IMG/VR virus record: IMGVR_UViG_3300049911_000129 | Span: 1 to 64,000 of that record | Source: a virus | DNA: 64,000 nt | Reading direction: 5' to 3' (one strand) | Part shown: one piece after another, positions 1 through 20,347 of the stretch | Layout of the letters: each line of letters starts with the position of its first letter | Position numbering within the stretch: the stretch's first letter is position 1 | The notes under the pieces: model-generated | Databases searched by the model: none | What the model saw: only the letters and a program-made list of their open reading frames with translations | Told to the model about the DNA's origin: nothing | Position numbers and translations under genes: made by a program

Positions 1-3000
1 GCCGCGAAGGCGCTCGAGGCGGCCGGCTTCAAGCGGGCGACGTTCGACCCGGAGAGCATGGGCGGGCAGTACCGGGGAGGCACCTACAGGATATACTCGG
101 GCGGCAAGGGCTCGGACTACTTCCACGCGGACATCGCCAGGAGGGGGGCGGACGAGGCCAGGTTCAGGGAGGCGCTCGAGGGGGCGGGCTTCAGGGCGAG
201 GCCGATGGGGTCGGGCTTCCAGGTGGAGGAGTCCAGGAACAGCAAGGCCGACAAGGCCGAGATCATGGAGAGCCCCGTCTACGTCAAGCCGGGCCAGCCG
301 GTGCCGAAGGGGGTCGAGGTGCAGCACGGGCCGCGCGGGGGGACGTTCTACGACCCGCAGGTGAGCCCGTCGCAGGCCGGGCACCGGGTGCACATCCCGA
401 GGGACCTGCGAGACGTGGTCCTGGGCGAGACGCCCGTCTGCGCCTACTGCGGCACGTCGAGGGGGCCGTTCCACGCCGACCACATAGTGCCGGTGAAGGT
501 CGGGGGCAGGAACGTGAGGATCAACCTCCAGCCGGCCTGCGCGGCGTGCAACGAGGCAAGGGGCGCGAAGGACCCGTCCCGCAAGCTGGAGTGGATAAGG
601 TACGGCCAGAAGCAGATGCGCGACATCATGGGCCAGGTGCTGGCCAGGCCGCGCGTCGCGAACATGGTGAAGAAGGTCTGGGGGGACGAGCTGTGGCTGT
701 CCTCCCCGTCGCCGTACGCTTCGGCCCTGCTGAAGGGCGCGAGGCCTATCCACCTCGGCCCGGGCGACCCGGTCCCGGAGGGCGCGAGGGAAGTGCGCGG
801 CCCGAGGGGGGGCAGGTACTACGTTCCGGCCAGGGGGGATGCTGGGTCCGAACATGATAGCCGGGACACCAACAACGTCAAGGAACCGACGCAAGCGGAC
901 ACCGCCGAGTGGGCGAGGCAGGACGACGAGCGGGTGGCGCAGGTAAGGCGCAGGGCGCAGGAGCTGGACGACCTCGTGCAGCGCGTCTGGGTCGGGGACT
1001 GGACGAGGGGCAGGTTCGCCGAGACGGTCGCCGGGCTGCCGGACGACGAGCTCAGCAGCCTCAAGGGCTACGTGATCCCGAGGGCCATGCAGATGGTCGA
1101 GGGCAGGAAGGCCAAGGCCGCGCTCAGGGGCGCCCTCGAGACGGTCGAGAGCGAGCTCGGGTCCAGGGAGAAGTCGCTCATACACGGCACGCCGATCGGG
1201 AACCTTAAGGCCATCCTAAAGGTTGGGCTGCTAACCGACAAGGGAGCGTCCAACTTCAGCCTCTCGGCCCCGGGGGTGGTCTACCTTAGCCCGGAGACGA
1301 GGGACGGCAGGCAGCTGTCGCTCACCGTCGCCGCCGCGGCCGCCCTGGTGCACGGGGAGGACAGCTTCGCCGTGCTGCGCATCAGGATGCCGCGCAGGGG
1401 GCTCGAGACCGACCCGAAGTCCTTCGCCAGCGGCGGGATGCTCACGAAGCACGACGTGCCGCCGACTGCGGTCGTGGGCTACGAGGTCTACGACGCCAGG
1501 GACCTCAAGCAGATGTACGAGGACGCGGTCGCGGAGAGGGACGCCCTGTGCTCGCAGCACAACGACGACCCGAAGTACTGCGGGGACGGCCCGTGGGTCA
1601 GCCTCTTCGTCAACCGGTTCGACGACTACGTGCAGGAGAGGGGGATGCCCGAGCCGGTCCGCGAGGTCGACCTGACCGGCAGGCGGAAGGCCGCGGCCGG
1701 GGACATCTTCCTGGCCCCCGCGACAGGGGACACGATCAGGACGCTGCTGGGCTGCTTGCGCAACGAGGGCGGCGGAAGCGGCGATCTTGCGCAAGTCGGC
1801 GGGCTACGGAAGCAGGGGTTCACCCATGAGCACGATGGCTGGCCTAGGCACCCGATAGGCGTCAAGTACCACGACAAGTACTTCCAGGAGCACGGCGGGT
1901 GGAAGATCGGCATGCCGTCCGATGAGCCGGATAGCCCGTACGGCGACGAGAGCGCGGAGGACGAGCTCGACCGCAAGGTCGCGGGCTTCATAGAGGAGAT
2001 AGCCGCCGGCAGGTGGGACAAGGGCGCGACCTTCGCCATGGGCGACGACACGCTCAAGGCCCTGTGGCTGCGGCTCGACCTGGACCTCAAGACCGGCCGC
2101 GTCCAGTTCACCCTCGACACCAGGCGCGCGCGGGACCAGCTGAAGGACCAGGTCATGCGCAGGGGTCTGCTCCCGGGCACGCTGTCGGGTGAGTTCTACC
2201 GCGCCAAGAAGGCCGTCACGGACGGCACGGACTGGGCGATGGACAAGCGCGAGGCGCAGAAGGCCAGGCTCGCGGACGACCTCGGCAAGGCGGCGTTCGG
2301 CGGCAAGTCCCAGTTCGACCGCGCGGCGGACGTGGCCATAGCGGAGGCGATCGCCGCCGGGGTGCTGGAGCGGACCGCCCACGCGGGCTACCACCTGTAC
2401 AAGTATGTCAGCTACGCCGCGGTGGAGCCAGACGAGTCGGGCGCACCGTCATCGCCACCACATAGCAGGCCGATTGGCGGCCGGTGGGGGGTCATCCGGT
2501 GGATGATGGACAACAGCGAGGGGAGCGTCGACAAGCAGCGGTGGGTGTTCGAGATGGAGAAGGCGGCGGAGGGCGACAAGACGTACGCCCTGCTCGCCGA
2601 CATGATGCAGCTCAGCAAGACCGGGGCGACCGGGCTGAGGCAGGACCTGAGCGGCCTGTCGTACTGGCTGCACGCTGGCGGCGAGACGGCGATGTCCGAG
2701 ACGCTCGGCGCGGCCGCTGCTGGCATGATAGTGAAGACGTGGGCCAGGTCCGCTTCTGACCACCAGCCGCTCAGCATAGCCGTGCAGAAGGCGGCCGCCG
2801 CGGAGTTCGGCATGGCGACCGACATAGACGAGTGGACGGGGGTCGCCGCGAGGGACGAGGCGAGGGCGTTCCTGAAGGCGCACGGCGACGAGCTGAGGGG
2901 GTTCACCAGGAAGGTCTACGACCACACCCAGAGGTTCCTCAAGAAGCGCGGGGTGGAGGAGCTGACGCTGGCGCGCGGGTGGGGATGGGACCCGCACGAA

Positions 3001-5622
3001 ACGCCCGAGTGGTTCGTCGACATGGTCCGCGAGGTGCGGCACGACGCGTACTGGAACGGGGAGCCGCCCGCCAAGCCCCTGGGCGTCAGGAAGGCCGTAC
3101 AGCTCAACCCGATGTCGTCCTTCTCGACCGAGTACGAGCAGGCGCAGGCGTTCGCCACCGGGAGGAACGGGATCGTGACCATGGCGAGGGTGCCGATCTC
3201 GAGGGTCCTGTCCACGTTCATGACGGGCTTCGGGTGCGCGACCGAGAACGAGGTCATCGTCCTCGGGGGCGAGCTCGACGCGGTCCACCTCGCCGGAAGC
3301 TCGGAGTCGCTCCCCAAGGACCCGGACGACGCTGAGGACGTGCTGGCGGAGGGCGGGCTGAGGATAGGTGACGCGCAGGAGTGGCCGCCGCAGTCGCCGC
3401 TCTTCAACGCCGCTGAGGGCCCGCAGGCGGTCCCGCTGGACGCGGACGCGTACGACTGGCCCAAGCGGACCAGGGACTACGATCTGCATCAGGGCGATGC
3501 GAATGATAGTATCGCGGGGCTCGATAAGCACCTTCCCGGCCGGCACGACCAGGAGGACCACGGGAACGAGCACAGGCTGTCCGACGCGCACCCGGCGCTG
3601 GGCAAGATGACGGTCGGCTACGGGGGCGATAAGAGGGCGGCCACGGCGAAGGACTGGGAGAAGTACGAGGGGGAGGCCAAGACCAGGGTCGAGGAGTGGG
3701 CGGCCGGCGGCAAGTACGACAGGAAGATGGAGCCGGACGAGATCTGCTACGAGGGTTACCGGCTGAGGGCGAGCGCGAGGGGGAGGAGCGACGCCTGGAG
3801 CTGGGCGCTCTGGGAGGCCGTGCAGAGGTTCGCCGCGTCGAGGGGCTTCTCGTACATGGACGAGGTGACGGAGGACGACGTCTTCGCCGACCCGAGGATG
3901 CCGGAGCCCGAGAGCATCATAGACGACGACAAGGTCAGGGAGCGGTGGCAGGTGGCCGCGCACACGGCCGACAGCAGGCTGACGGACTACCGCAACTCCA
4001 ACAGCGCGAAGACGCTGCTCGACTTCATCAGGACGGAGAGCGGGGGGATGTGGCAGAGGCATTGCCAGCGCGACCTCTGGAACCTGGCCCGCGGGGCGGG
4101 GGGAGAGACGGTCCCGGTCGGCAAGAGGGGGTTCGGCGCCGAGAGGCACTTCGAGGAGTACAGGCCGTTCGCGGAGCCGGGCGGGCTCAAGGGCGCCAAG
4201 ACCTGGGAGGAGGCGCTGGACGCGGAGTTCACGGTCTACCGCGGCGTGGTCAAGGGGGACGAGGCGGAGAACGCCAGGCGCAAGCCGGTCGTCTCGTACA
4301 CGACCTCGCCCGAGATAGCCAGGCTCTTCGCCGAGGGATACTACCACAGCTACAACGTGCCGGGTCAGGGCAAGGTCTACCAGAGGACCTGCAGGCTGCG
4401 CGACGTGCTCAGCTACCTCAACCCGGACGGCGAGCTCGAGGTCCTGCTGAAGCCGCCGGGGAGCAAGGCCGAGAAGGCCTACGGCGGGTATTATACGAAT
4501 GGCGGGATCGCGTTCACGCACGAACATGGCGGGTTGCCGCGGCATCCTGCTGTCCTGAAGGACCACGCGGTTCTGGACAAGCGGTCGGGTGGCCGCGGGG
4601 GGAAGGTCTTCCTGGGCCCGGGCGAGAAGGCTCCGGAGGGCGTGGAGGTGCACGAGGGTCCGCGCGGCGGAAGGTGGTACCAGGGCGGCAAGGCCAAGGA
4701 GCCGGAGCCTGAGCCGAAGAGATCCACCACGTCGAGGCGCGTGCTGGAGGGCAAGACCCCGGAGCGGACGGAACTGGAGGGCGAGACGACCTTCGCGCAG
4801 GCCGGGCTGAGGGGAGGCATCTGGGGTTCGCAGACGGCCATCGCCGAGTGCAAGCCGGGCGTGCTTCCACACGTCGACGGGTTGTCAGACACGAGGCTCC
4901 TGCACAAGATGGTCCCGCAGGACGCTATAACCGAGTTCACGGTGTTCAGGGTCTTCGAGGCGCTCAGGCCGGGCTTCTGCCCGCCGGTCATGCTGGACGA
5001 CCTTCCCGAAAAGGACGACGTGGTGGACTCGTACTACTCGGATCGCCCGAAGGGGCACTCCATGAGGTGGGTGGACGAGGCCGGATTCGGCGGGACAGCC
5101 ATGACGTATGCGCAGTACCTGGCGCACCACGAGGGTCATGACGCCATGACCCCGGCGCAGGCCATGGACGCGGGGTTCATGAACACGGTTGACTGGCTGG
5201 TCTCCAACCAGGACAGGCACACCGGCAACATCATAATCGACGGCGACCGGCTCTGGCCGATCGACCACGGCATATGCTCCGTCGAGTCGATACCCTCCGG
5301 CAACTACGGCGTGGACTACTCGTTCAAGAGCCACCTCAAGGGGCCGAAGACGCTGCGCGCGTTCAGGGACTCGGCGCTCGCCGCGCTCAAGCAGATATAC
5401 GACGACGCGGACGAGGTCGCGTGGGTCATGGTGAGCAGGGGCGATACGCAGAAGAGCGAACGGGTGAAGGGTGTGGATCTCCTCCCGAAGAGTGCGGAGG
5501 TGATGGCCAGGTCGCTCAGGGCCGCGACCGGCAGGGCGGCGGAAGACCTGAACAGGTGGTACAGGGACGAGCTTAAGTACAGGAGGGAGATGCGCCAGGA
5601 GCGGGAGGCTAGGCGGCGATGA
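1..5622 (+). CDS. Giant polyvalent virion protein (HNH, three ART-like regions, kinase), 5' partial
   Basis: The frame is already open at base 1, so the true start lies upstream; residues are numbered from the first internal Met at 58. Visible modules in order: an HNH nuclease at about 125-178 (CxxC, then ADHIVPV, then CxxCN); an ART/DarT-like region at about 373-480 (HGTP..NLKAILK.GL); a classical R-S-E type ADP-ribosyltransferase at about 1015-1070 (SSFST, then the ExE of TENEV, E1063); another at about 1391-1465 (VYRG, SYTTS, GELEV, E1459); and a C-terminal kinase-like domain at about 1586-1740 (NQDRHTGN and IDHG, as in PI3/4-kinase and HipA folds). Three copies of the RGGRYY tag and junction peptides (FTHEHxGxPRHP twice, KHLPGRHDQEDHG once) separate the modules. 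Such arrays are known as phage 'polyvalent proteins'. Packaging with the DNA and action on host targets is inferred. The stop overlaps the next start (ATGA). Confidence 0.85.
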   Translation, partial: AAKALEAAGFKRATFDPESMGGQYRGGTYRIYSGGKGSDYFHADIARRGADEARFREALEGAGFRARPMGSGFQVEESRNSKADKAEIMESPVYVKPGQPVPKGVEVQHGPRGGTFYDPQVSPSQAGHRVHIPRDLRDVVLGETPVCAYCGTSRGPFHADHIVPVKVGGRNVRINLQPACAACNEARGAKDPSRKLEWIRYGQKQMRDIMGQVLARPRVANMVKKVWGDELWLSSPSPYASALLKGARPIHLGPGDPVPEGAREVRGPRGGRYYVPARGDAGSEHDSRDTNNVKEPTQADTAEWARQDDERVAQVRRRAQELDDLVQRVWVGDWTRGRFAETVAGLPDDELSSLKGYVIPRAMQMVEGRKAKAALRGALETVESELGSREKSLIHGTPIGNLKAILKVGLLTDKGASNFSLSAPGVVYLSPETRDGRQLSLTVAAAAALVHGEDSFAVLRIRMPRRGLETDPKSFASGGMLTKHDVPPTAVVGYEVYDARDLKQMYEDAVAERDALCSQHNDDPKYCGDGPWVSLFVNRFDDYVQERGMPEPVREVDLTGRRKAAAGDIFLAPATGDTIRTLLGCLRNEGGGSGDLAQVGGLRKQGFTHEHDGWPRHPIGVKYHDKYFQEHGGWKIGMPSDEPDSPYGDESAEDELDRKVAGFIEEIAAGRWDKGATFAMGDDTLKALWLRLDLDLKTGRVQFTLDTRRARDQLKDQVMRRGLLPGTLSGEFYRAKKAVTDGTDWAMDKREAQKARLADDLGKAAFGGKSQFDRAADVAIAEAIAAGVLERTAHAGYHLYKYVSYAAVEPDESGAPSSPPHSRPIGGRWGVIRWMMDNSEGSVDKQRWVFEMEKAAEGDKTYALLADMMQLSKTGATGLRQDLSGLSYWLHAGGETAMSETLGAAAAGMIVKTWARSASDHQPLSIAVQKAAAAEFGMATDIDEWTGVAARDEARAFLKAHGDELRGFTRKVYDHTQRFLKKRGVEELTLARGWGWDPHETPEWFVDMVREVRHDAYWNGEPPAKPLGVRKAVQLNPMSSFSTEYEQAQAFATGRNGIVTMARVPISRVLSTFMTGFGCATENEVIVLGGELDAVHLAGSSESLPKDPDDAEDVLAEGGLRIGDAQEWPPQSPLFNAAEGPQAVPLDADAYDWPKRTRDYDLHQGDANDSIAGLDKHLPGRHDQEDHGNEHRLSDAHPALGKMTVGYGGDKRAATAKDWEKYEGEAKTRVEEWAAGGKYDRKMEPDEICYEGYRLRASARGRSDAWSWALWEAVQRFAASRGFSYMDEVTEDDVFADPRMPEPESIIDDDKVRERWQVAAHTADSRLTDYRNSNSAKTLLDFIRTESGGMWQRHCQRDLWNLARGAGGETVPVGKRGFGAERHFEEYRPFAEPGGLKGAKTWEEALDAEFTVYRGVVKGDEAENARRKPVVSYTTSPEIARLFAEGYYHSYNVPGQGKVYQRTCRLRDVLSYLNPDGELEVLLKPPGSKAEKAYGGYYTNGGIAFTHEHGGLPRHPAVLKDHAVLDKRSGGRGGKVFLGPGEKAPEGVEVHEGPRGGRWYQGGKAKEPEPEPKRSTTSRRVLEGKTPERTELEGETTFAQAGLRGGIWGSQTAIAECKPGVLPHVDGLSDTRLLHKMVPQDAITEFTVFRVFEALRPGFCPPVMLDDLPEKDDVVDSYYSDRPKGHSMRWVDEAGFGGTAMTYAQYLAHHEGHDAMTPAQAMDAGFMNTVDWLVSNQDRHTGNIIIDGDRLWPIDHGICSVESIPSGNYGVDYSFKSHLKGPKTLRAFRDSALAALKQIYDDADEVAWVMVSRGDTQKSERVKGVDLLPKSAEVMARSLRAATGRAAEDLNRWYRDELKYRREMRQEREARRR
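271..360 (+). repeat. RGGRYY tag, copy 1
   Basis: Protein-level repeat in the giant protein: VKPGQPVPKGVEV followed by HGPRGGTFY. It sits just before the HNH module. This is the most diverged copy at its C-terminal end (TFY instead of RYY). Confidence 0.8.
739..831 (+). repeat. RGGRYY tag, copy 2
   Basis: LGPGDPVPEGAREV followed by GPRGGRYY, placed between the HNH module and the first ART-like region of the giant protein. Confidence 0.8.
4579..4689 (+). repeat. RGGRYY tag, copy 3
   Basis: KRSGGRGGKVFLGPGEKAP, then EGVEVHEGPRGGRWYQGG. It joins the third ART-like region to the kinase-like domain, right after the second FTHEHxGxPRHP junction peptide. Confidence 0.85.
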
Positions 5623-6686
5623 GAGCGGTAGTGTATGCCCTGAAGGACGGCCGGCTGGAGCAGGTCGCGGAGGTGTTCGTGGACGGGCAGGTCAAGGGCC
5701 CGTTCGCCGGCGAGATCCGCGCGTGGATAGGGCACCATGGGTTGGACGGCGAGAAGATGCTGAGGGTCCTGGCCAGGCGGTGGACGACCGGCTACACGGC
5801 GGTCGAGCTGCTGGACGGAGACAGCAAGGAGGACAAGAGGTCCGGAGGCCGGGGCGGGAGGACGTACCTCGGGCCGAAGGAGGAGGCCCCTGCGGGAGTC
5901 GAGGTGCACCAGGGGACGAGGGGCGGGCGGTGGTACGAGGGCGGCAAGAAGGATCCGACCAAGGACTGGAAGATCCACCAGGACTACCCCAAGAGGGAGC
6001 CGAACCCGTACGAGGACTACGCGGTGAAGCCGAAGACGCACGAGGAGATCTTCGACCAGAAGTGGCACACCGAGCGGCTGGGCCAGTGGAAGAGCTTGGT
6101 CGAGGGGGTTGTCCTCGGCCTGCCGTTCGAGCACGCGGAGCTGGTGTCGGACGTGACCGTCACGAAGTACGGCAACAACGGGATAAGCGGGACCTTCGAG
6201 TCGGCGCTGGCCGGGGCGTTCGGCGTCCGGGTGCCGCGCGGGAGGATACTGCTGCGGTTCAAGGGCGCCCCGTTCAATGACACATTCCTTATGGAGACGG
6301 TCGCGCACGAGGTCGGGCACGCGGCGTGCAGGCTCGTCTTCTTCAGCGGGACGGACCACGACACGGAGCTCAAGAAGCGGGTCCTCAGGGCCTACCACAC
6401 CGCCTACAGGGCGGCCGGCAACGAGGCGCTGACGGAGATACACCACAGGCGCTACTTCGCCCCGGCCGCGGTAGCCGGCGCGAGGCAGGCCAGGGCCGTG
6501 TCGCCGTACTCGCTCAAGAACCCGGACGAGTTCTTCGCCGAGCACTACGCCTGGTACCGGATGCACCCGACGTCGCTGCAGGCGCTAAACGAGGAGATGT
6601 ACTCCATCATGAAGGGCGTGTACGGCGGGAGGGAGAACTTCGAGGTGCACCCGCAGGGCGGGCTGAAGAGGGGGCGATATGGATAG
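5619..6686 (+). CDS. Tagged zinc metalloprotease (HEVGH), cargo-type
   Basis: 355 residues, starting inside the stop of the giant protein (ATGA), so translationally coupled to it. Residues 73-109 are a copy of the RGGRYY tag. The C-terminal half carries a gluzincin-like signature: HEVGH at 230-234 in a hydrophobic helix, and an NPDEFFAEHYAWY segment at 301-313 that could give the third zinc ligand (Glu304 or Glu308). Metallopeptidase domains of this kind occur in phage polyvalent proteins. The N-terminal ~70 residues are unrecognised. No signal peptide is visible, consistent with a protein assembled into the particle. It could mature virion cargo or cleave a host protein after injection; the sequence does not separate these. 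Confidence 0.75.
   Translation: MRAVVYALKDGRLEQVAEVFVDGQVKGPFAGEIRAWIGHHGLDGEKMLRVLARRWTTGYTAVELLDGDSKEDKRSGGRGGRTYLGPKEEAPAGVEVHQGTRGGRWYEGGKKDPTKDWKIHQDYPKREPNPYEDYAVKPKTHEEIFDQKWHTERLGQWKSLVEGVVLGLPFEHAELVSDVTVTKYGNNGISGTFESALAGAFGVRVPRGRILLRFKGAPFNDTFLMETVAHEVGHAACRLVFFSGTDHDTELKKRVLRAYHTAYRAAGNEALTEIHHRRYFAPAAVAGARQARAVSPYSLKNPDEFFAEHYAWYRMHPTSLQALNEEMYSIMKGVYGGRENFEVHPQGGLKRGRYG
5835..5945 (+). repeat. RGGRYY tag, copy 4
   Basis: KRSGGRGGRTYLGPKEEAP, then AGVEVHQGTRGGRWYEGG, N-terminal to the metalloprotease domain. Nearest in sequence to copy 3 of the preceding gene. Confidence 0.85.
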
Positions 6687-7101
6687 GATAGTGGTGAGGT
6701 CGCCGACGGGCAAGGTGGTCGGGGTCGCGAACGCGCGGCGCCTGACGCTGTTCGACAGGGAGCTGAAGGCGCACCTCGAGGAGGTCATGGCCTCCGGGCT
6801 GCCGATCGGCCCTGACGGCGGGCTGGCGAGGCCGTCCGTGTTCGCGCTGCTGGACTACCTCGGGCGGAGCGGCTACGAGGTGGTGTGGCCAAAGGGCAAG
6901 GTCGAGAAGGCGCCGGGGATCTCCGAGGACGGGAGCGAGTCGGCCGACCCGGGGCACGTGGTGGGCGACGGGAGCCCGGAGCTCGAGAAGGACTTCGGCG
7001 GGGCGGGCGCGCCGATGACGGGCGGCATGGTGAGCACCCCGGTCGCGGGCTCGGGCAGGAAGCGTCCGGGATGGTCAAGGGGGTTAAGACGTGGAAGATA
7101 G
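6679..7101 (+). CDS. Hypothetical head-module protein, 140 aa
   Basis: Starts with ATG 8 bases before the end of the protease gene and overlaps the following gene. The first ~75 residues look globular (a short beta-hairpin start, DRIVVRSPTGKVVGVANA, then a helical part). The last ~65 residues are Gly/Pro/Ser-rich and probably disordered. Not recognised. Tight coupling to the tagged cargo genes suggests a role in the same head or cargo assembly. Confidence 0.65.
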   Translation: MDRIVVRSPTGKVVGVANARRLTLFDRELKAHLEEVMASGLPIGPDGGLARPSVFALLDYLGRSGYEVVWPKGKVEKAPGISEDGSESADPGHVVGDGSPELEKDFGGAGAPMTGGMVSTPVAGSGRKRPGWSRGLRRGR

Positions 7102-7288
7102 GATAAAGGCCCTCACGTGCCCGGTGTGCGGATCGACGGACTACACGTCGTTCGGCTGGTCGGTGACGTTCGACGGGATGATGGAGGCGCTGCTGAGGCA
7201 CGCGCGGGAGGAGCACCCGGGTCATGTCCGCGACGTGGGCGGCATCACCTACATCGACAGGATCCCGATGGTGGGGGACTGCGAGTAG
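7091..7288 (+). CDS. Small zinc-finger protein, 65 aa
   Basis: GTG start with an AAGGGGG site about 8 bases upstream, overlapping the end of the previous gene. One CPVCG pair followed by LLRHAREEHPGH gives a likely C2H2-type zinc site. Small proteins of this type are common in phages; a function cannot be assigned. Confidence 0.65.
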   Translation: MEDRIKALTCPVCGSTDYTSFGWSVTFDGMMEALLRHAREEHPGHVRDVGGITYIDRIPMVGDCE

Positions 7289-7330
7289 GGGCTTCCAGCT
7301 AATGCGCCCGCGCGCAATAATGGAGACAGC

Positions 7331-7528
7331 ATGACGAGCAAGACCCATACGCGGAAGGTGAACAGGAAGTGCCCCAGGTGCGGGGAGGCCGTATGGACCG
7401 ACGACGGACCGTGCGGGGATGGGCTCTACTACTGCTACGAGTGCATATTGGGGGACCACTGCGGCTGCGAGCGACACGGGCCGCGCAGGCTCCTGAGGAG
7501 GCTCTGGGATGCCATTCGCAGGGTATAA
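7331..7528 (+). CDS. Small cysteine-rich zinc-ribbon protein, 65 aa
   Basis: ATG start preceded by GGAGA. Contains CPRCG, CYEC and CGCERH, enough for one or two zinc sites, and a basic C-terminus (RRLLRRLWDAIRRV). It overlaps the next start by 20 bases. The 42-base gap upstream holds a GGGCTTC segment similar to other post-stop gaps of this phage and no promoter that I recognise. Function unknown. Confidence 0.6.
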   Translation: MTSKTHTRKVNRKCPRCGEAVWTDDGPCGDGLYYCYECILGDHCGCERHGPRRLLRRLWDAIRRV

Positions 7529-10181
7529 GGACTTCGCGGACTGCACGAGCCGCAACCGGGACAAGGGCGACCCAGACGCCTACTGCGGGGCCATAAAGCG
7601 CGACACGGAGGACAAGGCCATGAATGAGGTGGTAGACCACGGCGGCATGATGGCGACCGTCGGTAAGGCCACGGCGGCTGCGCTGTCGCTGGCCACCGCA
7701 ATCTTCAGGGCCGGTCACCAGCCGCCCACGAGTTGGTCGGGCAGGCATGCCAACCGGGATAAGACATACCTGGCCCCGGGCGAGGAGCCGCCAGAGGGCG
7801 TGGACGTCAAGCAGGGCAAGCGCGGGGGTCGGTACTACGTCGGCCCGAAGCGCGGTCCGGGCACCGAGCACCCGTCGCCGGCGGGGGGCGGAGAGGACGA
7901 GACGCACGGCCCGGCGCGCGGGAAGACGCCGGTCAACCTCCCGGACGCGCGGGACGTGATGGACCAGGTCTGGGACCACTTCGGTCCGCAGTCCATTGCG
8001 ATGGCTGGCCACGCCGCGCTGGTGCAGGAGATCAAGCGCCGGGATCCGGGGCTGTCCAACGACGAGGTCATGAGGGCGGCTGACTCGCTGGCCAACATGG
8101 CGCGAACGCACGTCGAGGGGCACAGGGAGGAGGGGGAGGACATGGGCCCGGAGGAGGAGGTCGGCGGTCCGGCGATGGAGGAGCCGGAAGAGCCGGATGC
8201 TGAGGCGGAGGATCCGAATGAGCTCGAGGAGGAGGTCGGAGAGCTGACCAACCAGCTGACTGACATCCGCGACAAGCTGAAGGACATGGCCAGCATGTAC
8301 CCGTCGCTGCAGGCGACCATCGAGGCGTACATCATACCGGGCTTCGACGACCTGATCGGCGAGGGCCCGAACAGGAACCCGTACAACCAGAGCCTGACCG
8401 GACTGGTCGAGTCGCTGCGCGAGCGCCAGGAGGAGAAGCGCCAAAGCGAGGACGAGGAGCGCTACAGGAGCGAGACGCCGGAGTCCCGCAGGCGGCTGAG
8501 CATGTCGGTCGCGAAGGCGGGCGCCGAGGCGTTGTCGCTGGCGGCTGGCAATCAGGCTGCTGCGGATTCGCTCCACGGCGGGAATGGTCCACCACCGAGG
8601 GGCAAGCGCAAGCCGGGCGACAGCGAGTACGAGAGGCCGTACGGGCCGGGTGTTGGCAGGCGCGGCAGGGAGCCGAAGCAGGAGCCGAGCACACCGGCGG
8701 ACGAGGGCAACATCGCCGGAAGGCGCGAGGCGCAGGGCAGGCTGACGGGCGACGAGGGCAGGGGCAGGGCAGGCGGGCATGACCCAGGAGACGCGAAGAA
8801 CACGCGGACTCGCCGAGCCCGAGGCGGGCCGGACGAGCGTGCCCGCGAGAGGGCGAACGATCCGCACCCGGAGGATATGAAGGGCGGCAGGACCTACCTG
8901 GCGCCAGGCGAGCAGCCTCCGCCGGGGGTCGACATCAAGCAGGGCGAGCGCGGCGGGAGGTACTACGAGGGCGGCAAGCGAGGAGGTGGTAAGCCGCAGC
9001 CAGCGCCGTCGCAGAAGCCGCCGGTCAAGAACTACGGGGAAGGCGGGCCTGCGTTCACGCACGCGCCGACCGATCCGAGGCAGGCAGGCGGGAAGCCACA
9101 ACAGGGTCCGCAGGGCGGCAAGGAGCCGTGGTCCGACTTCGAGCCGGACACGTCCTCGTTCTCCACGGCAGCGATCAAGTTCGTCAAGGACTCGATAGCG
9201 GCCGGCAGGGGACTGGACGAGATCCACGCCCAGCTGCACGAGGCTGGCATGAGCCCGCAGGAGGCGCACGAGCTGGTCGGGATGGGGCTCAAGGGCGCGA
9301 AGCAGACGCCGGGCGAGTACGACCAGGGCAAGAGGCAGGACGCGAAGCCGCAGGGCGCGGGCAAGCCGAAGCCGTTCAATCGCGAGCTCGCTCGCCGGAC
9401 CAAGTTCTTCGTGGACGACATCGTCGGCCGGCTGGACGACAGGGACATGCTCGACGAGTATGACACCGGGATGATCGTCGACGAGGTCATGAACGAGGTG
9501 GAGTCCCAGGCGGGCGCCAAGACGCTCTCGCAGGATGAGTATGTCGCCGCCGGAAGGTACGCGGAGAAGCTGGTGCGCGCGAGGACGGGCGACCCGGACG
9601 ACGACCCGTGGGAGCCGAGCACGGGGGATGAGCAGCCGCAGGAGTACGGGCAGCCTCCCAAGCCGAAGTTCAAGAACGCCCCAGGGAGCAGGTTCAGCGA
9701 GCACGGTGACGCTCCGGACGGCAGGCACGTGAGCGAGTTCGAGGACGAGGACCTCAACCCGGCCGAGCTGTGGCAGAAGGTGGCGGGGCTAACCGAGGAC
9801 CACGATGACGAGGGCGCCAGGCGTACGGCAGGCAACATGGTCGGGAAGCTGGCCGCGGAGCTGGACGCCGCAAACAGGGTGTCGGCCGACCACGTGGAGG
9901 TGCTGGCGCGGAAGCTGGCATCTGCGTACCAGGGCGTGCCGAAGGAGTACATCGATGCTGCGCTCAAGCGGGTGCAGTCCGGGAAGGGGCAGGCGGGCGG
10001 CAACCGGGAGGCGGTCCGACGCTACGAGAACACCCGTCCCGAGGGCGCACCAGCGGGCGGCGGATACGCCATAGCGTACGACCCGAGGACGAAGCGGCAC
10101 AAGGTCATCCAGCACCCCAAGGGCGAGATGACCAGGGAAGAGGCCCAGCAGGACATGAAGGCGCGGAGGCGCCAGCGATAG
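7509..10181 (+). CDS. Large tagged low-complexity head protein, 890 aa
   Basis: The N-terminus (PFAGYKDFADC...DPDAYCGAI, residues 2-29) is a two-cysteine motif I recall from other phage head proteins. There follow a hydrophobic helix (about 45-65), an RGGRYY tag (84-114), an acidic coiled-coil-prone region (about 210-275), a charged Arg/Glu/Pro-rich stretch, a second tag (457-490) and a C-terminal helical part. The last ~140 residues resemble a segment of the next gene (SEFEDEDLNPAELWQK versus TEFDDEELEPFELMQK, then a helix ending in a DEYLDAA-like block). No enzyme domain is recognised. Position immediately before the prohead protease suggests an internal head or scaffold-like protein. Confidence 0.75.
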   Translation: MPFAGYKDFADCTSRNRDKGDPDAYCGAIKRDTEDKAMNEVVDHGGMMATVGKATAAALSLATAIFRAGHQPPTSWSGRHANRDKTYLAPGEEPPEGVDVKQGKRGGRYYVGPKRGPGTEHPSPAGGGEDETHGPARGKTPVNLPDARDVMDQVWDHFGPQSIAMAGHAALVQEIKRRDPGLSNDEVMRAADSLANMARTHVEGHREEGEDMGPEEEVGGPAMEEPEEPDAEAEDPNELEEEVGELTNQLTDIRDKLKDMASMYPSLQATIEAYIIPGFDDLIGEGPNRNPYNQSLTGLVESLRERQEEKRQSEDEERYRSETPESRRRLSMSVAKAGAEALSLAAGNQAAADSLHGGNGPPPRGKRKPGDSEYERPYGPGVGRRGREPKQEPSTPADEGNIAGRREAQGRLTGDEGRGRAGGHDPGDAKNTRTRRARGGPDERARERANDPHPEDMKGGRTYLAPGEQPPPGVDIKQGERGGRYYEGGKRGGGKPQPAPSQKPPVKNYGEGGPAFTHAPTDPRQAGGKPQQGPQGGKEPWSDFEPDTSSFSTAAIKFVKDSIAAGRGLDEIHAQLHEAGMSPQEAHELVGMGLKGAKQTPGEYDQGKRQDAKPQGAGKPKPFNRELARRTKFFVDDIVGRLDDRDMLDEYDTGMIVDEVMNEVESQAGAKTLSQDEYVAAGRYAEKLVRARTGDPDDDPWEPSTGDEQPQEYGQPPKPKFKNAPGSRFSEHGDAPDGRHVSEFEDEDLNPAELWQKVAGLTEDHDDEGARRTAGNMVGKLAAELDAANRVSADHVEVLARKLASAYQGVPKEYIDAALKRVQSGKGQAGGNREAVRRYENTRPEGAPAGGGYAIAYDPRTKRHKVIQHPKGEMTREEAQQDMKARRRQR
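7758..7850 (+). repeat. RGGRYY tag, copy 5
   Basis: DKTYLAPGEEPPEGVDV, then KQGKRGGRYYVGPK, after the hydrophobic N-terminal helix of the 890-residue protein. Confidence 0.85.
8878..8978 (+). repeat. RGGRYY tag, copy 6
   Basis: GGRTYLAPGEQPPPGVDI, then KQGERGGRYYEGGK, in the middle of the 890-residue protein; closest to copy 5. Confidence 0.85.
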
Positions 10182-10182
10182 C

Positions 10183-13100
10183 ATGAGGATAGACAAGTCG
10201 GTCGCGCACGACTGGTCGACCGTCCTGATAGACACGGTCCCGCAGGGGTCCGTGTCCGAGTACGGCCGAGTCAGGATCCTGTACAAGCAGGGGGGGCTGG
10301 CGGAGGACTACGAGCTGGTCATCGCCGGCTACGCGTCGCCGCAGGTCGTGGACCGCGAGAAGCACCTGATCACCAAGGAGGCCATGCAGGCCGACCTGCC
10401 GAGGTTCCTGGCGCACCCGCACTACCGGAACGCCATGATCGTCCACTCCAATATACAGGTCGGGGAGGTGCTCCCGACGTGGACCAACCCAGAGACTAAG
10501 GAGGAGTTCGCGACCAAGGTGGACGACCTCGGGCTCTTCTGCGTCATAAAGCTGCGGACCGACAAGTACCGCCCGGAGATCTGCTCCAAGGTCGAGAAGG
10601 ACGTGCGCGAGGGCAAGCTCGCGTCGTTCAGCATCTCCGGGGACGCCCCGTTCGACAGCAGGCGCCACGTCTGCAGCAGCGGGACGTGCTTCTGGATCAT
10701 CGACAAGATAGAGTTCTACGAGATAACTATCTGCGAGCAGGGCGTGAACCAGGACGCCAAGTTCGCGGTCCTGAGCAAGGCGGCGCACTGCGAGGACGGC
10801 TCGTGCGCGCTGCAGCTCCCGACGCCGTTGACCAGGTCCGCGCTTGCGTCTGCCATCTCCAAGGGCCGGACATACCTCGCACCAGGCGAGGACGCACCGG
10901 AGGGTGTGAACGTCGAACAGGGTCCGAGGGGTGGGCGCTACTACGAGGGCGGGGAAGAGGGCGGAATCGAGCCCGAGGGACTGGAGTGGCGCAACCTACA
11001 TCGGACAGGCGACACGGTGCAGGCCGAGGTAAAGGTGCGCGGCGTCGAGGGCGAGAGTCTGATGGTGCACCAGGAGAAGCGCCCGGCGGGACGCCGTTAC
11101 TGGGGCATGGGCGCCGAGACGTCAGGCTGGTCCGCCGGAAGGCCAGGGTCCTGGCACACGGGGATGACAAATATCAAGACCGCCAAGGAAATGGTTAAGG
11201 CGGCACCGCTGATTCAGGAGGCCGTCAACAAGCATCCGGGGGCGAACAGCGTGCGCGTGAGGGTCGAGCAGCAGGAAAACGGGTTGCTCAAGGTCTCGGA
11301 GTACGACCGCAATAAGTGGACCGAGCTCGTCGGTTCGCAGGCTAAGCCTGGAGCGGAGCCGACACAGGAGGGAGGCGGAAGTCCACTATCCTCCGAGGTC
11401 CACGATCTGGCGGTCAAGCTCGGTCGGCACGCCGCCGAGGCGGGCTGGACGCGCGAGGAGGCGCTGCAGTGGGCGCAAGGCGTGGCGGTCGACAACCGCG
11501 TCAAGGCGAGCGACGTCATGGCAGTAGCGGCCAAGGAGTGGGCCAGGGCGAGCACGGAGGCCAGGAAGCCGGCCAAGGCGCCGACGCGGTTCAACCAGCG
11601 CGGCCAGTCGGACCACGGCAACGTGACGGAGTTCGATGACGAGGAGCTCGAGCCGTTCGAGCTGATGCAGAAGATAAACGAGATCGACGATCCGGCGGTC
11701 GTGGCGGCGTCCGAGAAGGTCATGGTGGACAAGCTCGCCGAGGAGATATACATCGGCGCGCACGCCTCCGGCAGCTTCCAGAGCGCGGCGCGGAAGGTGG
11801 AGCAGAAGTACGGCCGGTTCGGCATGCCCGACGAGTACCTGGACGCGGCGGCGGATCAGGCGCGAAAGCGGAAGACCAAGCCGGAGCGCCAGCAGTGGCC
11901 GAGGCGCGGCGCGAGGCCGCAGGACGTCTTCGGGCTGCCGAGGCGCGGGTACGGGAAGTTCGGGAAGGCGGCGGTCGGCGGAGCGGGCGGCGCGATAACG
12001 CCGATCACGCCGATGCAGGGACCGGAGGCGGCCAAGGACCCGTCGAAGGCCGACATCGTGGGCGAGAAGGCGGGCGGCTCGGCGATGGGCCACGGCAGCG
12101 TGGGGGCGGTTGCGAAGGAGGGCCCGAGCGGTCCGGATAGCCCGCTGACCGAGGGCGAGGTCACGGTCGCGGAGGACTTCGCGGCGAGGATGTGGGAGAG
12201 CATGGGGCGGCCCCACGACTTCGGGCAGTTCAGGCGTGGCCTGGGCGTCGAGTGGGAGCACGCAGACGTCCTGGGCGGGGACTGGCTGAAGGTCGCGCAG
12301 GTCGTGCTGGACCACCTGGCGGAGGATGAGGCGTACTACACCAAGCTGGCGACCATCGAGAAGGGCATGGGCGTGCTTGGCCGGGCGGTTGCCAGGGCTA
12401 TCGAGAAGAGGTCGGGCGGGCGCGGCGGGCGCGTCTACCTGAAGCCCGACGAGAAGGCGCCGGAGGGCGTGGAGGTCCAGACGGGCCCGAGCGGCGGTCG
12501 CTACTATGACAGGAAGGGCGGTGGCGAGAAGCCGAAGGAGTCCGAGGCCGGGGAGAAGCCGCGCACGGGCGAGGGGAAGGGACCGGAGGGATCTGGTGTC
12601 GGTGGTGTCCCGCCGAAGGTTCAGAAGAAGATAGACATAATGAAGGGCAACCTCGAGGACTACGTCTATCGTCTCAAGCACGCCAACGAGAGGCGCGTGG
12701 AGATGGGCAACGAGTATTGGCACGAGCCGAAGTCATACGCCGCCAGGCAGGCGCACAAGGACATCGCGGAGTATCAGCGGAGGGTGTACGACCTGCAGAC
12801 TAAGCTGGAGGATTGGGAGGGCCTGACCGCTGCTCCTGATGACGTGGCGAGGGCCATCGAGAAGGGCGCACACTTCCAGAGGAGCCACTGGCACGCCAGC
12901 AAGATGGTTCGTGGGTACAGTTCGCGCTCGACCGGCTACGAGGTCGAGCCGCATAAGGGTCAGCTGCAGGTTAGATACTACATGGGCAACAGCGACTGGC
13001 GCAAGGAGGTGAGCCTCAAGCGGCTGGGTACCATGAAGGAGGCGCTCGAGGACGCCGGATATAACGTCAAGATGGAGGAGGACTACCTGGTGGTCGGTTC

Positions 13101-15453
13101 GGGCGGCAGGATCAAGAAGGCCGGGTTCGCCGGAGGCGGCGGGGCGGACGTGGGGAGCGGCTGGGCCGTGGAGGTACACGACCCGACGACGGCAGGCAAG
13201 AAGGGCGGCGTGATGAGCGACAGGAAGTTCGACGGGGTGGCCGAGCCGCACAGCCCGGGGCTGGTCGTGTCTCCGCCCGCGGGTCCGCTCGAGCAGAAGT
13301 GCCAGCACGGGTTCGAGAAGGGCGACCAGACGTGGGGCCCGGGAGACTTCGATTGGGCCGGGGACCAGGACGACGACGGGGATGTGGACGCGGACGACGA
13401 CGCGGTCGGGGCCGAGAAGGAGGACCGCGCGCAGATAGGCCAGGTCGCGAGGATCCCGCCGGTCCCGCAGATACGCAGGCCGAAGGCGCCGAAGCCGGCC
13501 GGGGTGACGTACAAGGCCGCGATTGACCCTAGCGAGACCACGCAGTTCAGTCCGACGTACGCGCGGGATGACGCGGCGGGCGGCGAGGAGTCCGAGGAGT
13601 ACTACCTGAACAAGCGATGCCCGCTGTGCGCGGCGCGCGACATCATAGAGGACGCGCTGGACGACCGGGGGATCTATGGCGCCATGTCCGAGGAGTTCCG
13701 CGGCGTGCTCAGGCACAGCCTCGCGGTCCTGCAGGCCGGGACGGGCGGGCTTGACTGGGTGCAGGGCGGAGGCTTCGTGGCCTTGTCCGACGACCACGCG
13801 TACGCCGGCTTCACGAGGCCCGGCTATGCGATCCCGATCGCGGGCGTCGCGGCGGCGATAGGCATGGCGGCGTTCGACCTGGGCGACGTGCGGATGGTCC
13901 GCAAGGCTGTAAAGGTCGGCAACCTGATACTCGAGACGCATCCGGTGGAGGAGCGCGAGTTCGCAGAGGGTCTGGCCGACATTCAGGAGAGGATGGCGCG
14001 CGAGCTCAACATCCAGATGGAGGGGGCCGAGGGAGGCCAGGAGCTGCGCAAGGGCTACCACGTCGGCTGGCTCGGGGACGCGCAGAGGACGCTGGAGAGC
14101 GTGAGGGCCGCGCTCGGCGGGATCAACCGGGACGCCATAGGCGACGAGCTCAAGGTCGCGTTGGACGCCATATCGGCGGACATGGACCACCTGGTTGGCT
14201 CGATCGGCGTGACGGAGCAGATGAAGGGCCAGGTGAAGGGCGTCGAGCCGGCCGCGCTGGACGTGGTGCGGACGGTCGCGAAGGACACCGAGGGCGACGT
14301 CAAGGCGGCCGACAGCGCGCTCGAGGTCGTGGACCCGGAGCGCATAGAGGCGAGGGCCGACGGCGAGAAGGACGAGATGAGCGACCCCGACCAGGTCGCG
14401 CACCCCTCCGAGGTGGCGGTGATGACAGGCGCGCCTCCGGGCGTCCCGACCGGCAACCAGGGCGCGAGCGTGGTGCACAGGGGCGAGGACGTCAAGTTCG
14501 GCGACTTCATAACGAGCAGGCTGCACAGGGTCTACTCCCAGACGGCCGACGACGTGATGGCGCTCGGGCACTTCGAGGACGACGTCGAGCGCAAGAAGGT
14601 CGGGGAGGCTATAGGCGAGGCATTGACCACGTTCAAGGAGGCGCTGACCAGGGACGGGCTGTTCGACCTGGTGCTGCCGTCCGAGGACGCCGAGCGGCTG
14701 CTCAAGGCGGTGATGCCTCCGCCGCGCGGGATAGCGAAGACCGACGAGGACTCGGACCTTTGGGGTGGGCAGAACAGGGGAGCCGGGGTCAGTCCGCTCG
14801 GTCCGACGACCGAGGCGCTGGACACGCTCGATCAGGGCCAGCACCCGGCGTACGGGTACAACAGGGACACCAAGCCGGAGGGGCTGACGAAGGACGTGGG
14901 TGCGCCGACCGCCGGCATGCCAGAGGCCGACGTGGCAGTGAACAGGGGCGTGGCGGTTGACAAGGAGCCGGAGGATCCGCTGGCGGTGGAGGCGTTCGAG
15001 ATGGAGCCGAGCGCGCCGAGGCAGCCAGACCCGGACTCCACGGCCGGGCATGTCGAGGAGAAGGACACGGGAGCGCGTAACGACCGATTCGTGGGCGAGC
15101 CGGATAGGGTGAGCAACAGCCGCCTGAGGAAGGATCCTGCGACCGACGAGCCGATGAACGTCAAGGGCGCCGGGGTCGGCAGGCGCAGCCAGTTCGAGGA
15201 CCAGGGTCCGCCGGGCGAGGTCGAGAGTCCGCAGCCGGTTCGCGAGCGCGAGTATGACAACAGGGGCGCACTGGTGCCGCAGTTGAACATGGGCGCGGAG
15301 GACGCGAAGGCGCTGTTCAAGCTCCACGCGTCGCTCTGGTCGCGGTACGTGAGCGACCCGCGGTTCGGGTTGGCCGTCATCGAGCTGGACGACGGGGGCA
15401 ACCCGGTGCAGATAGTGGACATAGCGAAGAGGACCGGCCATGGGCGCAGATAA
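10183..15453 (+). CDS. XkdF/S78-type prohead protease fused to a 1500-residue tagged extension
   Basis: 1756 residues. Residues 1-215 match the XkdF-like branch of phage prohead serine proteases: a GYAS..VVDREKHLITKEAM beta region, a His box (VHSNIQVGEV, H88) and a Ser box (LASFSISGDA, S150/S152), ending near CEQGVNQDAKF. These enzymes cleave scaffold and capsid proteins inside the prohead. The remaining ~1540 residues are unusual: two RGGRYY tags (226-257 and 742-776), a module shared with the preceding gene (about 475-570), small alpha/beta segments, a CPLC zinc-like motif near 1146, and a long acidic disordered tail. The family is normally only a few hundred residues, so the extension is probably a scaffold- or cargo-like part that the protease may release. 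The stop overlaps the next ATG. Confidence 0.85.
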   Translation: MRIDKSVAHDWSTVLIDTVPQGSVSEYGRVRILYKQGGLAEDYELVIAGYASPQVVDREKHLITKEAMQADLPRFLAHPHYRNAMIVHSNIQVGEVLPTWTNPETKEEFATKVDDLGLFCVIKLRTDKYRPEICSKVEKDVREGKLASFSISGDAPFDSRRHVCSSGTCFWIIDKIEFYEITICEQGVNQDAKFAVLSKAAHCEDGSCALQLPTPLTRSALASAISKGRTYLAPGEDAPEGVNVEQGPRGGRYYEGGEEGGIEPEGLEWRNLHRTGDTVQAEVKVRGVEGESLMVHQEKRPAGRRYWGMGAETSGWSAGRPGSWHTGMTNIKTAKEMVKAAPLIQEAVNKHPGANSVRVRVEQQENGLLKVSEYDRNKWTELVGSQAKPGAEPTQEGGGSPLSSEVHDLAVKLGRHAAEAGWTREEALQWAQGVAVDNRVKASDVMAVAAKEWARASTEARKPAKAPTRFNQRGQSDHGNVTEFDDEELEPFELMQKINEIDDPAVVAASEKVMVDKLAEEIYIGAHASGSFQSAARKVEQKYGRFGMPDEYLDAAADQARKRKTKPERQQWPRRGARPQDVFGLPRRGYGKFGKAAVGGAGGAITPITPMQGPEAAKDPSKADIVGEKAGGSAMGHGSVGAVAKEGPSGPDSPLTEGEVTVAEDFAARMWESMGRPHDFGQFRRGLGVEWEHADVLGGDWLKVAQVVLDHLAEDEAYYTKLATIEKGMGVLGRAVARAIEKRSGGRGGRVYLKPDEKAPEGVEVQTGPSGGRYYDRKGGGEKPKESEAGEKPRTGEGKGPEGSGVGGVPPKVQKKIDIMKGNLEDYVYRLKHANERRVEMGNEYWHEPKSYAARQAHKDIAEYQRRVYDLQTKLEDWEGLTAAPDDVARAIEKGAHFQRSHWHASKMVRGYSSRSTGYEVEPHKGQLQVRYYMGNSDWRKEVSLKRLGTMKEALEDAGYNVKMEEDYLVVGSGGRIKKAGFAGGGGADVGSGWAVEVHDPTTAGKKGGVMSDRKFDGVAEPHSPGLVVSPPAGPLEQKCQHGFEKGDQTWGPGDFDWAGDQDDDGDVDADDDAVGAEKEDRAQIGQVARIPPVPQIRRPKAPKPAGVTYKAAIDPSETTQFSPTYARDDAAGGEESEEYYLNKRCPLCAARDIIEDALDDRGIYGAMSEEFRGVLRHSLAVLQAGTGGLDWVQGGGFVALSDDHAYAGFTRPGYAIPIAGVAAAIGMAAFDLGDVRMVRKAVKVGNLILETHPVEEREFAEGLADIQERMARELNIQMEGAEGGQELRKGYHVGWLGDAQRTLESVRAALGGINRDAIGDELKVALDAISADMDHLVGSIGVTEQMKGQVKGVEPAALDVVRTVAKDTEGDVKAADSALEVVDPERIEARADGEKDEMSDPDQVAHPSEVAVMTGAPPGVPTGNQGASVVHRGEDVKFGDFITSRLHRVYSQTADDVMALGHFEDDVERKKVGEAIGEALTTFKEALTRDGLFDLVLPSEDAERLLKAVMPPPRGIAKTDEDSDLWGGQNRGAGVSPLGPTTEALDTLDQGQHPAYGYNRDTKPEGLTKDVGAPTAGMPEADVAVNRGVAVDKEPEDPLAVEAFEMEPSAPRQPDPDSTAGHVEEKDTGARNDRFVGEPDRVSNSRLRKDPATDEPMNVKGAGVGRRSQFEDQGPPGEVESPQPVREREYDNRGALVPQLNMGAEDAKALFKLHASLWSRYVSDPRFGLAVIELDDGGNPVQIVDIAKRTGHGRR
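10858..10953 (+). repeat. RGGRYY tag, copy 7
   Basis: GRTYLAPGEDAPEGVNV, then EQGPRGGRYYEGG, directly after the protease domain and so at the expected boundary between protease and extension. Confidence 0.85.
12406..12510 (+). repeat. RGGRYY tag, copy 8
   Basis: KRSGGRGGRVYLKPDEKAP, then EGVEVQTGPSGGRYYD, in the middle of the extension. It has the longer KRSGGRGG form shared with copies 3 and 4. Confidence 0.85.
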
Positions 15454-19388: not shown

Positions 19389-19598
19389 GTGTGGCGCGGG
19401 CTGAGGAGCAGGCTGCTGCGCAGGCTCGATAGGGACGCGATCGAGTACACCGGATCGACGCTGGTCGGCCACGTCATACTCGCGTGTGATCAGTGCGGCG
19501 CGCTTGTGGACTACCTCGAGCAGTCGGCAAAGGAGCCGTTCGGGTGGTTGTGCGGGCCATGCAAGGCTAGGGAGCAGGAGTGCCAGGAGACGACGTAG
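19389..19598 (+). CDS. Small zinc-ribbon protein in lysis cassette, 69 aa
   Basis: GTG start 4 bases after the holin stop. CDQCG and CGPC form one four-cysteine zinc site; the N-terminus is basic. It overlaps the endolysin start by 19 bases, so expression is coupled to lysis genes. Function unknown. Confidence 0.55.
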   Translation: MWRGLRSRLLRRLDRDAIEYTGSTLVGHVILACDQCGALVDYLEQSAKEPFGWLCGPCKAREQECQETT

Positions 19599-20347
19599 TA
19601 GACATCAGCGGCTGGGGCGGCGAACTCGACGTAGAGACCGTCCGCTGCTGGGCCAGGCAGGGGAAGCGGAAGGTCGTCGTCGGCGTGGGGCCGGATGTCG
19701 CGCTGGCGCGCAGACAGATGCTGGCGGTGCTCGCCGGCGGCCTGCTTCTGGAGGTGTACGTCTACCCGTACTACGAGGCCGACCCGGCGCGCTACCTCGA
19801 CCGCGTGGACGCGGCGACGGCTGGGCTGCAGGTCGGCTTCAGGTGGCTGGACTTCGAGGACACGGAGACGCTGCCTGGCGGGTACTCGTGGCAGTCGCTA
19901 GTGGTCCTGTGGGTCCACCAGTGCATGGGCGAGGCCACGGCGAGGTGGGGCGCAGAGAACATAGGCCTATACACCGGGGCGTGGTGGTGGCGGGAGTACA
20001 CCGACGACAGCGTGGATCTCGCCGGCTGGCCGCTGTGGGCCGCGGACTACGACCACGAGGCGAACGCGTCGTTCACGCCGTTCGGCGGCTGGATGGCATG
20101 TAGGCTGAAGCAGTACAGCGGGACCACCGAGCTCTGCAGGTTCTCGGTGGACCTGGACTTCGAGGGGGGATACGAGATGGACGTGGAGACGGAGAAGCAG
20201 CTGAAGCGGAGCATGGCGTTCCAGCGCTGGGGCGCGTTGATCACGACCGGGGAGGACGCCCAGGTCGAGCAGGCCCTGCGCGAGCTGATATACGTCAGGC
20301 TGCTTGCGGGCCTGCCGGCGATCCCGCCGGTGCCGGAGGACAAGTAG
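19580..20347 (+). CDS. GH25-type lysozyme endolysin
   Basis: GTG start with GGAGCAGGAG directly upstream. About 255 residues. Features of the glycoside hydrolase 25 barrel: DISGWGG near the N-terminus (D8), a beta-strand ending in the D-x-E pair (LDFED, D91/E93), GLYTGAWWW, LWAADYDH and a late QYSG with a conserved Asp. GH25 enzymes cut the MurNAc-GlcNAc bond of peptidoglycan. A helical C-terminal ~60 residues may bind the wall. No signal peptide, so release would need the upstream holin candidate. Confidence 0.75.
   Translation: MPGDDVVDISGWGGELDVETVRCWARQGKRKVVVGVGPDVALARRQMLAVLAGGLLLEVYVYPYYEADPARYLDRVDAATAGLQVGFRWLDFEDTETLPGGYSWQSLVVLWVHQCMGEATARWGAENIGLYTGAWWWREYTDDSVDLAGWPLWAADYDHEANASFTPFGGWMACRLKQYSGTTELCRFSVDLDFEGGYEMDVETEKQLKRSMAFQRWGALITTGEDAQVEQALRELIYVRLLAGLPAIPPVPEDK

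Follow-up and report, generated by a model that had tools for sequence, protein, structure and literature searches.

Why would a virus carry the same short stretch of protein sequence many times over, in a protease, in a giant polyvalent protein, and in the genes between them? The question is raised by the window studied here, bases 1-64000 of the 99,994-base IMG/VR virus record IMGVR_UViG_3300049911_000129, in which four consecutive plus-strand open reading frames (ORFs), A, B, C, and D, carry three, one, two, and two in-frame copies, respectively, of a 29-residue tag with the consensus K-x-R-V-Y-L-x-P-G-E-x-x-P-E-G-V-x-V-x-x-G-P-R-G-G-x-Y-Y-E. The answer that we favor, with a probability of roughly 60%, is that the tag is a docking module, an address label for the head interior that brings effectors into the prohead in viruses of the HVTV-1-type portal and capsid lineage.

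The eight copies had been picked out by a sequence-only reading of the window, and they were recovered by a search that was not circular. A profile built from 76 tag copies of other viruses only, run on all six frames of the window, found exactly these eight tags, with i-E values of 3.4e-6 to 6.7e-15, compared to 0.26 for the next best window match and 1.2 for the best match in a reversed-sequence control; a chance origin of the copies is therefore rejected. The positions given earlier were right to within a few codons, and the three copies with a KRSGGRGG form (at 4597, 5853, and 12424) were correctly recognized, though listed 6 codons early because the extension was counted as tag. This extension was seen in none of the external copies inspected. 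Comparison of the window copies at the DNA level showed a codon agreement of 51% at third positions compared to 71% at positions 1 and 2, and identical residues used the same codon in only 52% of cases. This means that the likeness is kept at the protein level and is not that of a recent DNA repeat. Because the ends of the virus record do not join, it lacks the start of A and whatever tags may lie beyond it.

Among 85 copies the consensus is K-x-[RK]-[VTI]-Y-[LVI]-x-x-[GP]-[ED]-x-[AP]-P-x-G-[VA]-x-V-x-x-G-x-x-G-G-x-[YFW]-Y-[ED], a conserved stretch of 29 residues with sharp edges, the first of them a K-x-[RK] boundary. Two residues never vary, the proline of PxG and the leading glycine of GG. 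What follows the tag is rich in G, P, E, and S, and linker-type residues make up 74% of the 20 positions past it compared to 57% in whole proteins. AlphaFold2, run on 42 residues containing tag copy 7 of protein D with 62 sequences, predicted a three-stranded beta-meander (strands at residues 10-13, 25-27, and 33-36 of 42), with a pLDDT of ~80 in the core and a pTM of only 0.43. On this medium-confidence prediction, the term mini-domain may suit the tag better than linear cleavage motif. The PDB held no sequence match to it at an E value of <0.4 and no fold match at an E value of <=0.001, and matches to viral proteins in a structure library (E values of 0.08-0.8) led back to the same haloarchaeal and archaeal viruses, giving no independent fold assignment. 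No known domain in Pfam or the PDB covers the tag (NCBIfam and PADLOC were not searched), and the sole family matching its region is phrog_24083, which is unnamed and 1233 positions long.

Degenerate scans of IMG/VR and profile searches of whole records, in which the starting copies were found by patterns biased to the consensus (GVxV, GGxYY), yielded ~100 tag copies in 32 virus records, mostly metagenomic fragments, at 1 to 8 copies per record. Among 50,697 phage records, only Druskaviridae are tagged (HVTV-1/2, HCTV-1, HCTV-5, and HCTV-16), two Klebsiella phage matches (E=8) being dismissed as chance; a similar motif in haloarchaeal tailed viruses, mentioned in the sequence-only reading, was thus borne out by HVTV-1, HCTV-1, and HCTV-5. 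The remaining tagged records are uncultured viruses. Plasmids gave no tag match. A strict DNA pattern run on 84,980 cellular genomes gave one match, inside a Siculibacillus ORF without the first half of the tag, which was rejected as chance; as the pattern would miss many true tags, rare cellular copies may exist. Matches to EGVSVHIGR[ND]GGRYYF in short ORFs of several contigs, also without the first half, were left out as probably chance or noncoding. The tag is nearly restricted to viruses. The portal family phrog_18178 (HVTV-1 gp112) occurs in 26 of the 31 tagged records, the five others being fragments of 9-34 kb, and the HVTV-1 capsid family phrog_24667 occurs in 16 of 24 tested; neither was found in 14 control genomes. 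Druskaviridae capsid proteins have been placed among marine archaeal viruses (PMC8651126). In record G016 (G016:C1:36911-38645), a TAA and a ~700-base gap interrupt the match to the HVTV-1-family capsid gene, which could reflect an inserted element or recoding.

Apart from the tag, the proteins that carry it are unrelated: when 68 nonredundant ones were aligned, no other stretch was conserved. Family matches include head proteins (portal, 7-8; S78 protease, 6; MuF, 3), effector types (DRAT and other ADP-ribosyltransferases [ARTs], zeta toxin, RelA/SpoT, NUDIX, HNH, metallopeptidases, PI3/PI4-kinase-like domains, DNA ligase, topoisomerase I, and PAP2). Head proteins and effectors therefore share the tag, and it often stands between a head domain and an effector. 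Good examples of this are L085 (S78-tag-zeta/PNK-like kinase), L045 (portal-tag-ART), and L088 (984-5012; portal with intein-tag-MuF); the portal part of the last matches an intein splicing domain (PF14890, E=2.8e-5). In neighboring genes of L029, the tag is N-terminal to the effector (tag-DRAT and tag-RelA/SpoT). In D of the window, a tag at aa 227-255 directly follows the S78 domain (aa 41-201), just where the sequence-only reading had put one copy. Of 65 proteins, 28 have their first tag <60 aa from the first Met, compared to 11.4 expected (p=2e-4); internal, C-terminal, and tandem positions are frequent as well, and in HVTV-1 gp116, a tag ends a few residues from the C terminus. The Druskaviridae zeta-toxin proteins (HVTV-1 gp115, HCTV-1 gp109, and HCTV-5 gp114) have the same tag ~22 aa from their annotated start, and their genes lie between the MuF and the head-protease/capsid genes; they have been annotated by the zeta-toxin domain only, with a role called unknown and the tag unmentioned (PMC4284463). 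A two-tag module that is a separate gene in HVTV-1 (gp116, L009:15878-16339) forms the C terminus of the zeta-toxin protein in HCTV-5 (gp114, L010:11944-15825), a natural fission/fusion. The capsid proteins, both that of the window and those located in other records, have no tag.

The tags also cluster with the genes for the head. S78 matches were found in 18 of 31 tagged records, and wherever S78 was detected in a record of at least 30 kb (10 of 10), the nearest tag was 0.27-3.7 kb away (p<=5e-5 by permutation, with tags rotated along each record). Clustering of profile hits in head modules beside S78-type proteases had been set beforehand as the test of the idea, and all ten records passed it. 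MuF is likewise nearer to tags than expected by chance (p=0.019), less strikingly than S78 because portal/MuF and the tag cluster are separated in records G000, G008, and G011. Homologues in unrelated gene contexts, which had been named in advance as the outcome that would count against the idea, were not seen apart from HCTV-5 gene 26 and two weak copies in G011 (at 158 and 171 kb). In the window, the tagged genes A-D lie upstream of the capsid gene.

A docking module is the simplest account of these observations because portal, MuF, head protease, and effectors share the interior of the prohead, and the occurrence of tags in tandem fits a binding module. Loading, injection, the partner that is bound, and whatever processing the protease may do are inferences beyond these observations and may be pictured as follows. 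A small folded module (~29 residues, predicted beta-meander) would bind one shared partner in the prohead as it grows, the likeliest candidates being the inner capsid or scaffold face and the portal-protease assembly. Any protein with the tag would be held there, whether head maturation protease, portal/MuF fusion, ADP-ribosyltransferase, kinase, nuclease, or peptidase, and the cargo domains would be packaged alongside the genome, to be injected when the next cell is infected. A flexible linker rich in G, P, E, and S behind each tag would separate it from the next domain, so that new effectors could be added as cassettes. The sequence-only reading had offered either capsid loading or protease cleavage as the role of a tag that lets such cassettes be added; its common head-module tag, its link to S78, and its effector cassettes are supported, and cleavage is now the less favored of its two options.

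Some observations weigh against docking. First, in records G000 and G008, taken as linear, a long distance separates the portal gene from the tag cluster. Second, HCTV-5 gene 26 is tagged, yet it lies outside the head module, beside ribonucleotide reductase; this small protein (L070:2862-3299) is a candidate early effector or packaged protein. Third, the tag is rare among further portal relatives, mostly short contigs or fragments, 3 of 29 having it. The portal lineage thus does not require it, and the tag was rejected as a lineage marker. Finally, portal and protease should reach the prohead untagged, so that a tag on them needs a reason, such as tethering of fused effectors or their release by cutting.

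The last point leads to the explanation that competes best, although we consider it unlikely: that the tag is where the head maturation protease recognizes and cuts its substrates. Effectors would be made fused to portal, protease, or one another, and cuts within the tag or immediately ahead of it would free them in the prohead. This would explain why, in fusions to portal or protease, a tag stands between the head and effector domains, where ejection would call for release, why S78 is always near a tag where detectable in long records, and why the tag starts at so sharp a boundary. The N-terminal placement also resembles the propeptides cut by SPN3US gp245 (PMC10052503), and in P1, Pro cuts DarA (PMC12810830). 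However, a conserved predicted fold of 29 residues exceeds the needs of a cutting site, the standard substrate of prohead proteases, the capsid protein, is untagged in the window and wherever else it was located, and the tandem tags and the near-C-terminal tag of HVTV-1 gp116 would mean redundant cuts. The prohead protease may cut at the tag, and docking with a later cut nearby, also possible, would reconcile the two explanations.

There is a smaller chance still that the tag is a neutral or structural element between domains, for oligomerization or as a spacer, spread by domain shuffling in head genes and with no addressing function. Such an element would be expected at domain boundaries with flexible linkers behind it, and might well be multicopy and lineage restricted, as the tag is. 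It would hardly be expected to keep its residues so strongly from haloarchaeal to GC-rich, presumably bacterial viruses; the variety of unrelated partners and the N-terminal bias point instead to a specific interaction, and an unrelated second tag, T2, has the same distribution. We regard as very improbable a signal for ejection or translocation, acting after the start of infection in the passage through portal and tail and not in loading. The cargo is of effector type, and C-terminal fusions to the portal face the head interior, as the tagged ones would; tags on the protease itself are left unexplained, however, and a tag that may be N-terminal, internal, or C-terminal fits such a signal poorly. 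The weakest proposal, that the repeat is kept as DNA to give homology for recombination between cassettes, appeals to the several copies in one operon and to the swapped effectors and is largely refuted, having been rejected on the near-random third codon positions of the window copies.

The second tag deserves attention of its own. T2, KHLPGxHDQxxHG (in its fuller form KHLPG[QKR]HDQ[SK]xHG), occurs in A and in 49 IMG/VR stretches (loci L093-L140), mostly of other viruses, with up to five copies in one ORF (L116:8815-11256). Proteins with T2 include head maturation proteases (15 of 54), portals (14), and head morphogenesis/MuF proteins (13), and also ADP-ribosyltransferases, HNH, ddrB-ParB, and kinase-like domains. 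Judged by these matches, T2 keeps the same protein company as the first tag despite its unrelated sequence. A third motif, T3 (FTHEHxGxPRHPxxVKxH), turned up in no records but that of the window virus and the related G008, in ORFs of locus L090 at 13996 (799 aa) and at 7778 (2095 aa). In the open-access literature searched, we found no paper containing the motif strings of the first tag or T2, nor a description of the first 29-residue tag. Two unrelated motifs that behave alike are the strongest sign of a general addressing principle. As a tentative extension, with the odds somewhat against it, archaeal and bacterial tailed viruses might have several unrelated, interchangeable "head addresses" (the first tag, T2, and perhaps T3), each recognized by a particular capsid lineage, for the modular recruitment of portal, protease, MuF, and injected effectors, a general and as yet undescribed cargo-addressing code.

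How does the tag compare with known systems? In phage P1, the 30 residues at the DarB N terminus are enough to target a reporter to the capsid (PMC9024508), and DarA, once cut at its N-terminal end, is located at the inner surface of the capsid (PMC12810830). The DarB signal and the capsid targeting sequence (CTS) of T4 internal proteins, the latter removed by the prohead protease, are both short and direct internal proteins to the head, and DarB is also a giant multidomain (antirestriction) protein, as A is. These signals are described at the N terminus, whereas the tag is N-terminal, internal, or C-terminal; as many tags are internal or C-terminal, it is not a short N-terminal signal of the CTS/DarB type. 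It is, in addition, multicopy, common to many proteins including protease and portal, and defined by a 29-aa consensus, and its role in loading would be by analogy. The polyvalent proteins of Iyer et al. 2017 (PMC5512222) include MuF or portal fused to effector domains, among them RelA/SpoT and zeta-type kinases. A resembles them in joining HNH, ART-like, and kinase-like domains beside head genes; the text of that paper does not mention the motif. Two of the marks of a polyvalent protein were found in A, namely, at least two effector-type domains (HNH with E=2e-8, and DRAT-like and kinase-like regions below the Pfam cutoff) and a neighborhood of head genes (the protease in D, capsid at 22177-23574, and portal/MuF at 72.3-74.9 kb). 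In SPN3US, head and ejected proteins share a feature linked to the gp245 protease, and the protease itself is among its substrates (PMC10052503). The shared feature there is a short cleavage motif, whereas here it is a predicted fold of 29 aa, and the capsid protein is untagged.

Features of the window are collected in Table 1. A runs as tag, HNH, tag, ART-like region, tag, and PI3/PI4-kinase-like region, and past the third tag the motif NQDRHTGNIII...IDHG can be read in the kinase-like region. The assignment of B as a putative metallopeptidase follows from an HExxH read from the sequence, with weak Pfam matches (E values of 0.003-0.06). C had been called a head protein; this label is unsupported, since outside its tags C has no significant match in Pfam or PHROG. 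D is assigned by sequence match as an S78-type prohead protease, PF04586 scoring over the cutoff in a frame search and below it in a whole-protein scan (E=0.007). Downstream of A-D there are also a GH25 lysozyme gene (19580-20347) and tail genes, and the portal and MuF genes are at 72.3-74.9 kb of the record. The lysozyme, together with a DNA polymerase of the phrog_17 family, suggests a bacterial host. The record also encodes a 5-hydroxymethyldeoxyuridine (5-hmdU) DNA kinase helical domain (L073:5851-6699; HMUDK_hel, E=1.7e-46), and the virus may have hypermodified thymine in its DNA. An RtcB RNA ligase gene and collagen-like repeat genes were noted (L073:13901-15073, L073:17407-17994, and window 24943-26655). 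The record ends within a collagen repeat, so the assembly break was probably caused by the repeat. A close relative, G030 (L141 and L220-L222), has ~90% DNA identity across 30.2-84.8 kb of the record; because the tagged region is not covered, it is uninformative on loss of the tag.

Table 1. Positions of tags, motifs, genes, and domains in the window (E values as given by the search named; aa, residues of the protein)
Feature	Position (strand)	Sequence	Protein and context	Match
Tag copy 1	268..354 (+)	ESPVYVKPGQPVPKGVEVQHGPRGGTFYD	A	External profile, i-E 5.5e-11
Tag copy 2	739..825 (+)	ARPIHLGPGDPVPEGAREVRGPRGGRYYV	A, after HNH domain	i-E 3.4e-6 (weakest copy)
Tag copy 3	4597..4683 (+)	GGKVFLGPGEKAPEGVEVHEGPRGGRWYQ	A, KRSGGRGG form, before kinase-like C-terminal domain	i-E 2.3e-11
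Tag copy 4	5853..5939 (+)	GGRTYLGPKEEAPAGVEVHQGTRGGRWYE	B, KRSGGRGG form	i-E 7.2e-12
Tag copy 5	7755..7841 (+)	RDKTYLAPGEEPPEGVDVKQGKRGGRYYV	C	i-E 3.8e-12
Tag copy 6	8883..8969 (+)	GGRTYLAPGEQPPPGVDIKQGERGGRYYE	C	i-E 4.4e-11
Tag copy 7	10861..10947 (+)	KGRTYLAPGEDAPEGVNVEQGPRGGRYYE	D, directly after S78 domain; AlphaFold-modeled beta-meander	i-E 6.7e-15
Tag copy 8	12424..12510 (+)	GGRVYLKPDEKAPEGVEVQTGPSGGRYYD	D, KRSGGRGG form, ~20 aa after DUF5661	i-E 4.4e-14
Second tag, T2	3526..3564 (+)	KHLPGRHDQEDHG	A; unrelated to first tag	
Third motif, T3, copy 1	1819..1884 (+)	FTHEHDGWPRHPIGVKYHDKYF	A	
Third motif, T3, copy 2	4513..4578 (+)	FTHEHGGLPRHPAVLKDHAVLD	A, just before tag copy 3	
Gene A	1..5622 (+)		Giant polyvalent protein, 5′ end cut by record end	
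HNH endonuclease domain	439..567 (+)		A, aa 147-189	PF01844, E=2e-8
ADP-ribosyltransferase (DRAT-like) region	3088..3276 (+)		A, aa 1030-1092	PF07357, E=1.2e-4, under Pfam cutoff
Kinase-like catalytic region	5185..5277 (+)		A, aa 1729-1759	PF00454, E=0.007, below cutoff
Gene B	5619..6686 (+)		Tag, then putative zinc metallopeptidase (HEVGH)	
Gene C	7509..10181 (+)		Two tags	
Gene D	10183..15453 (+)		S78-type head maturation protease fused to long C-terminal region, two tags	
S78 prohead protease domain	10303..10785 (+)		D, aa 41-201	phrog_23555 head maturation protease, E=2.6e-12
DUF5661	12217..12363 (+)		D, aa 679-727	PF18905, E=5.9e-9
Major capsid protein, HVTV-1 family	22177..23574 (+)		Untagged	phrog_24667

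Most large proteins of this lineage of uncultured tailed viruses are without an annotated role. If the tag is a loading address, a one-line search would bring out the candidate injected effectors of the whole lineage, and the tag could itself serve as a compact, transferable signal with which proteins are loaded into virus heads. Since the cultured haloarchaeal viruses HVTV-1, HCTV-1, and HCTV-5 carry the tag, the loading idea can be tested in them. The parallel case of T2 suggests that short repeated modules may be a general principle by which the heads of prokaryotic viruses address their cargo.

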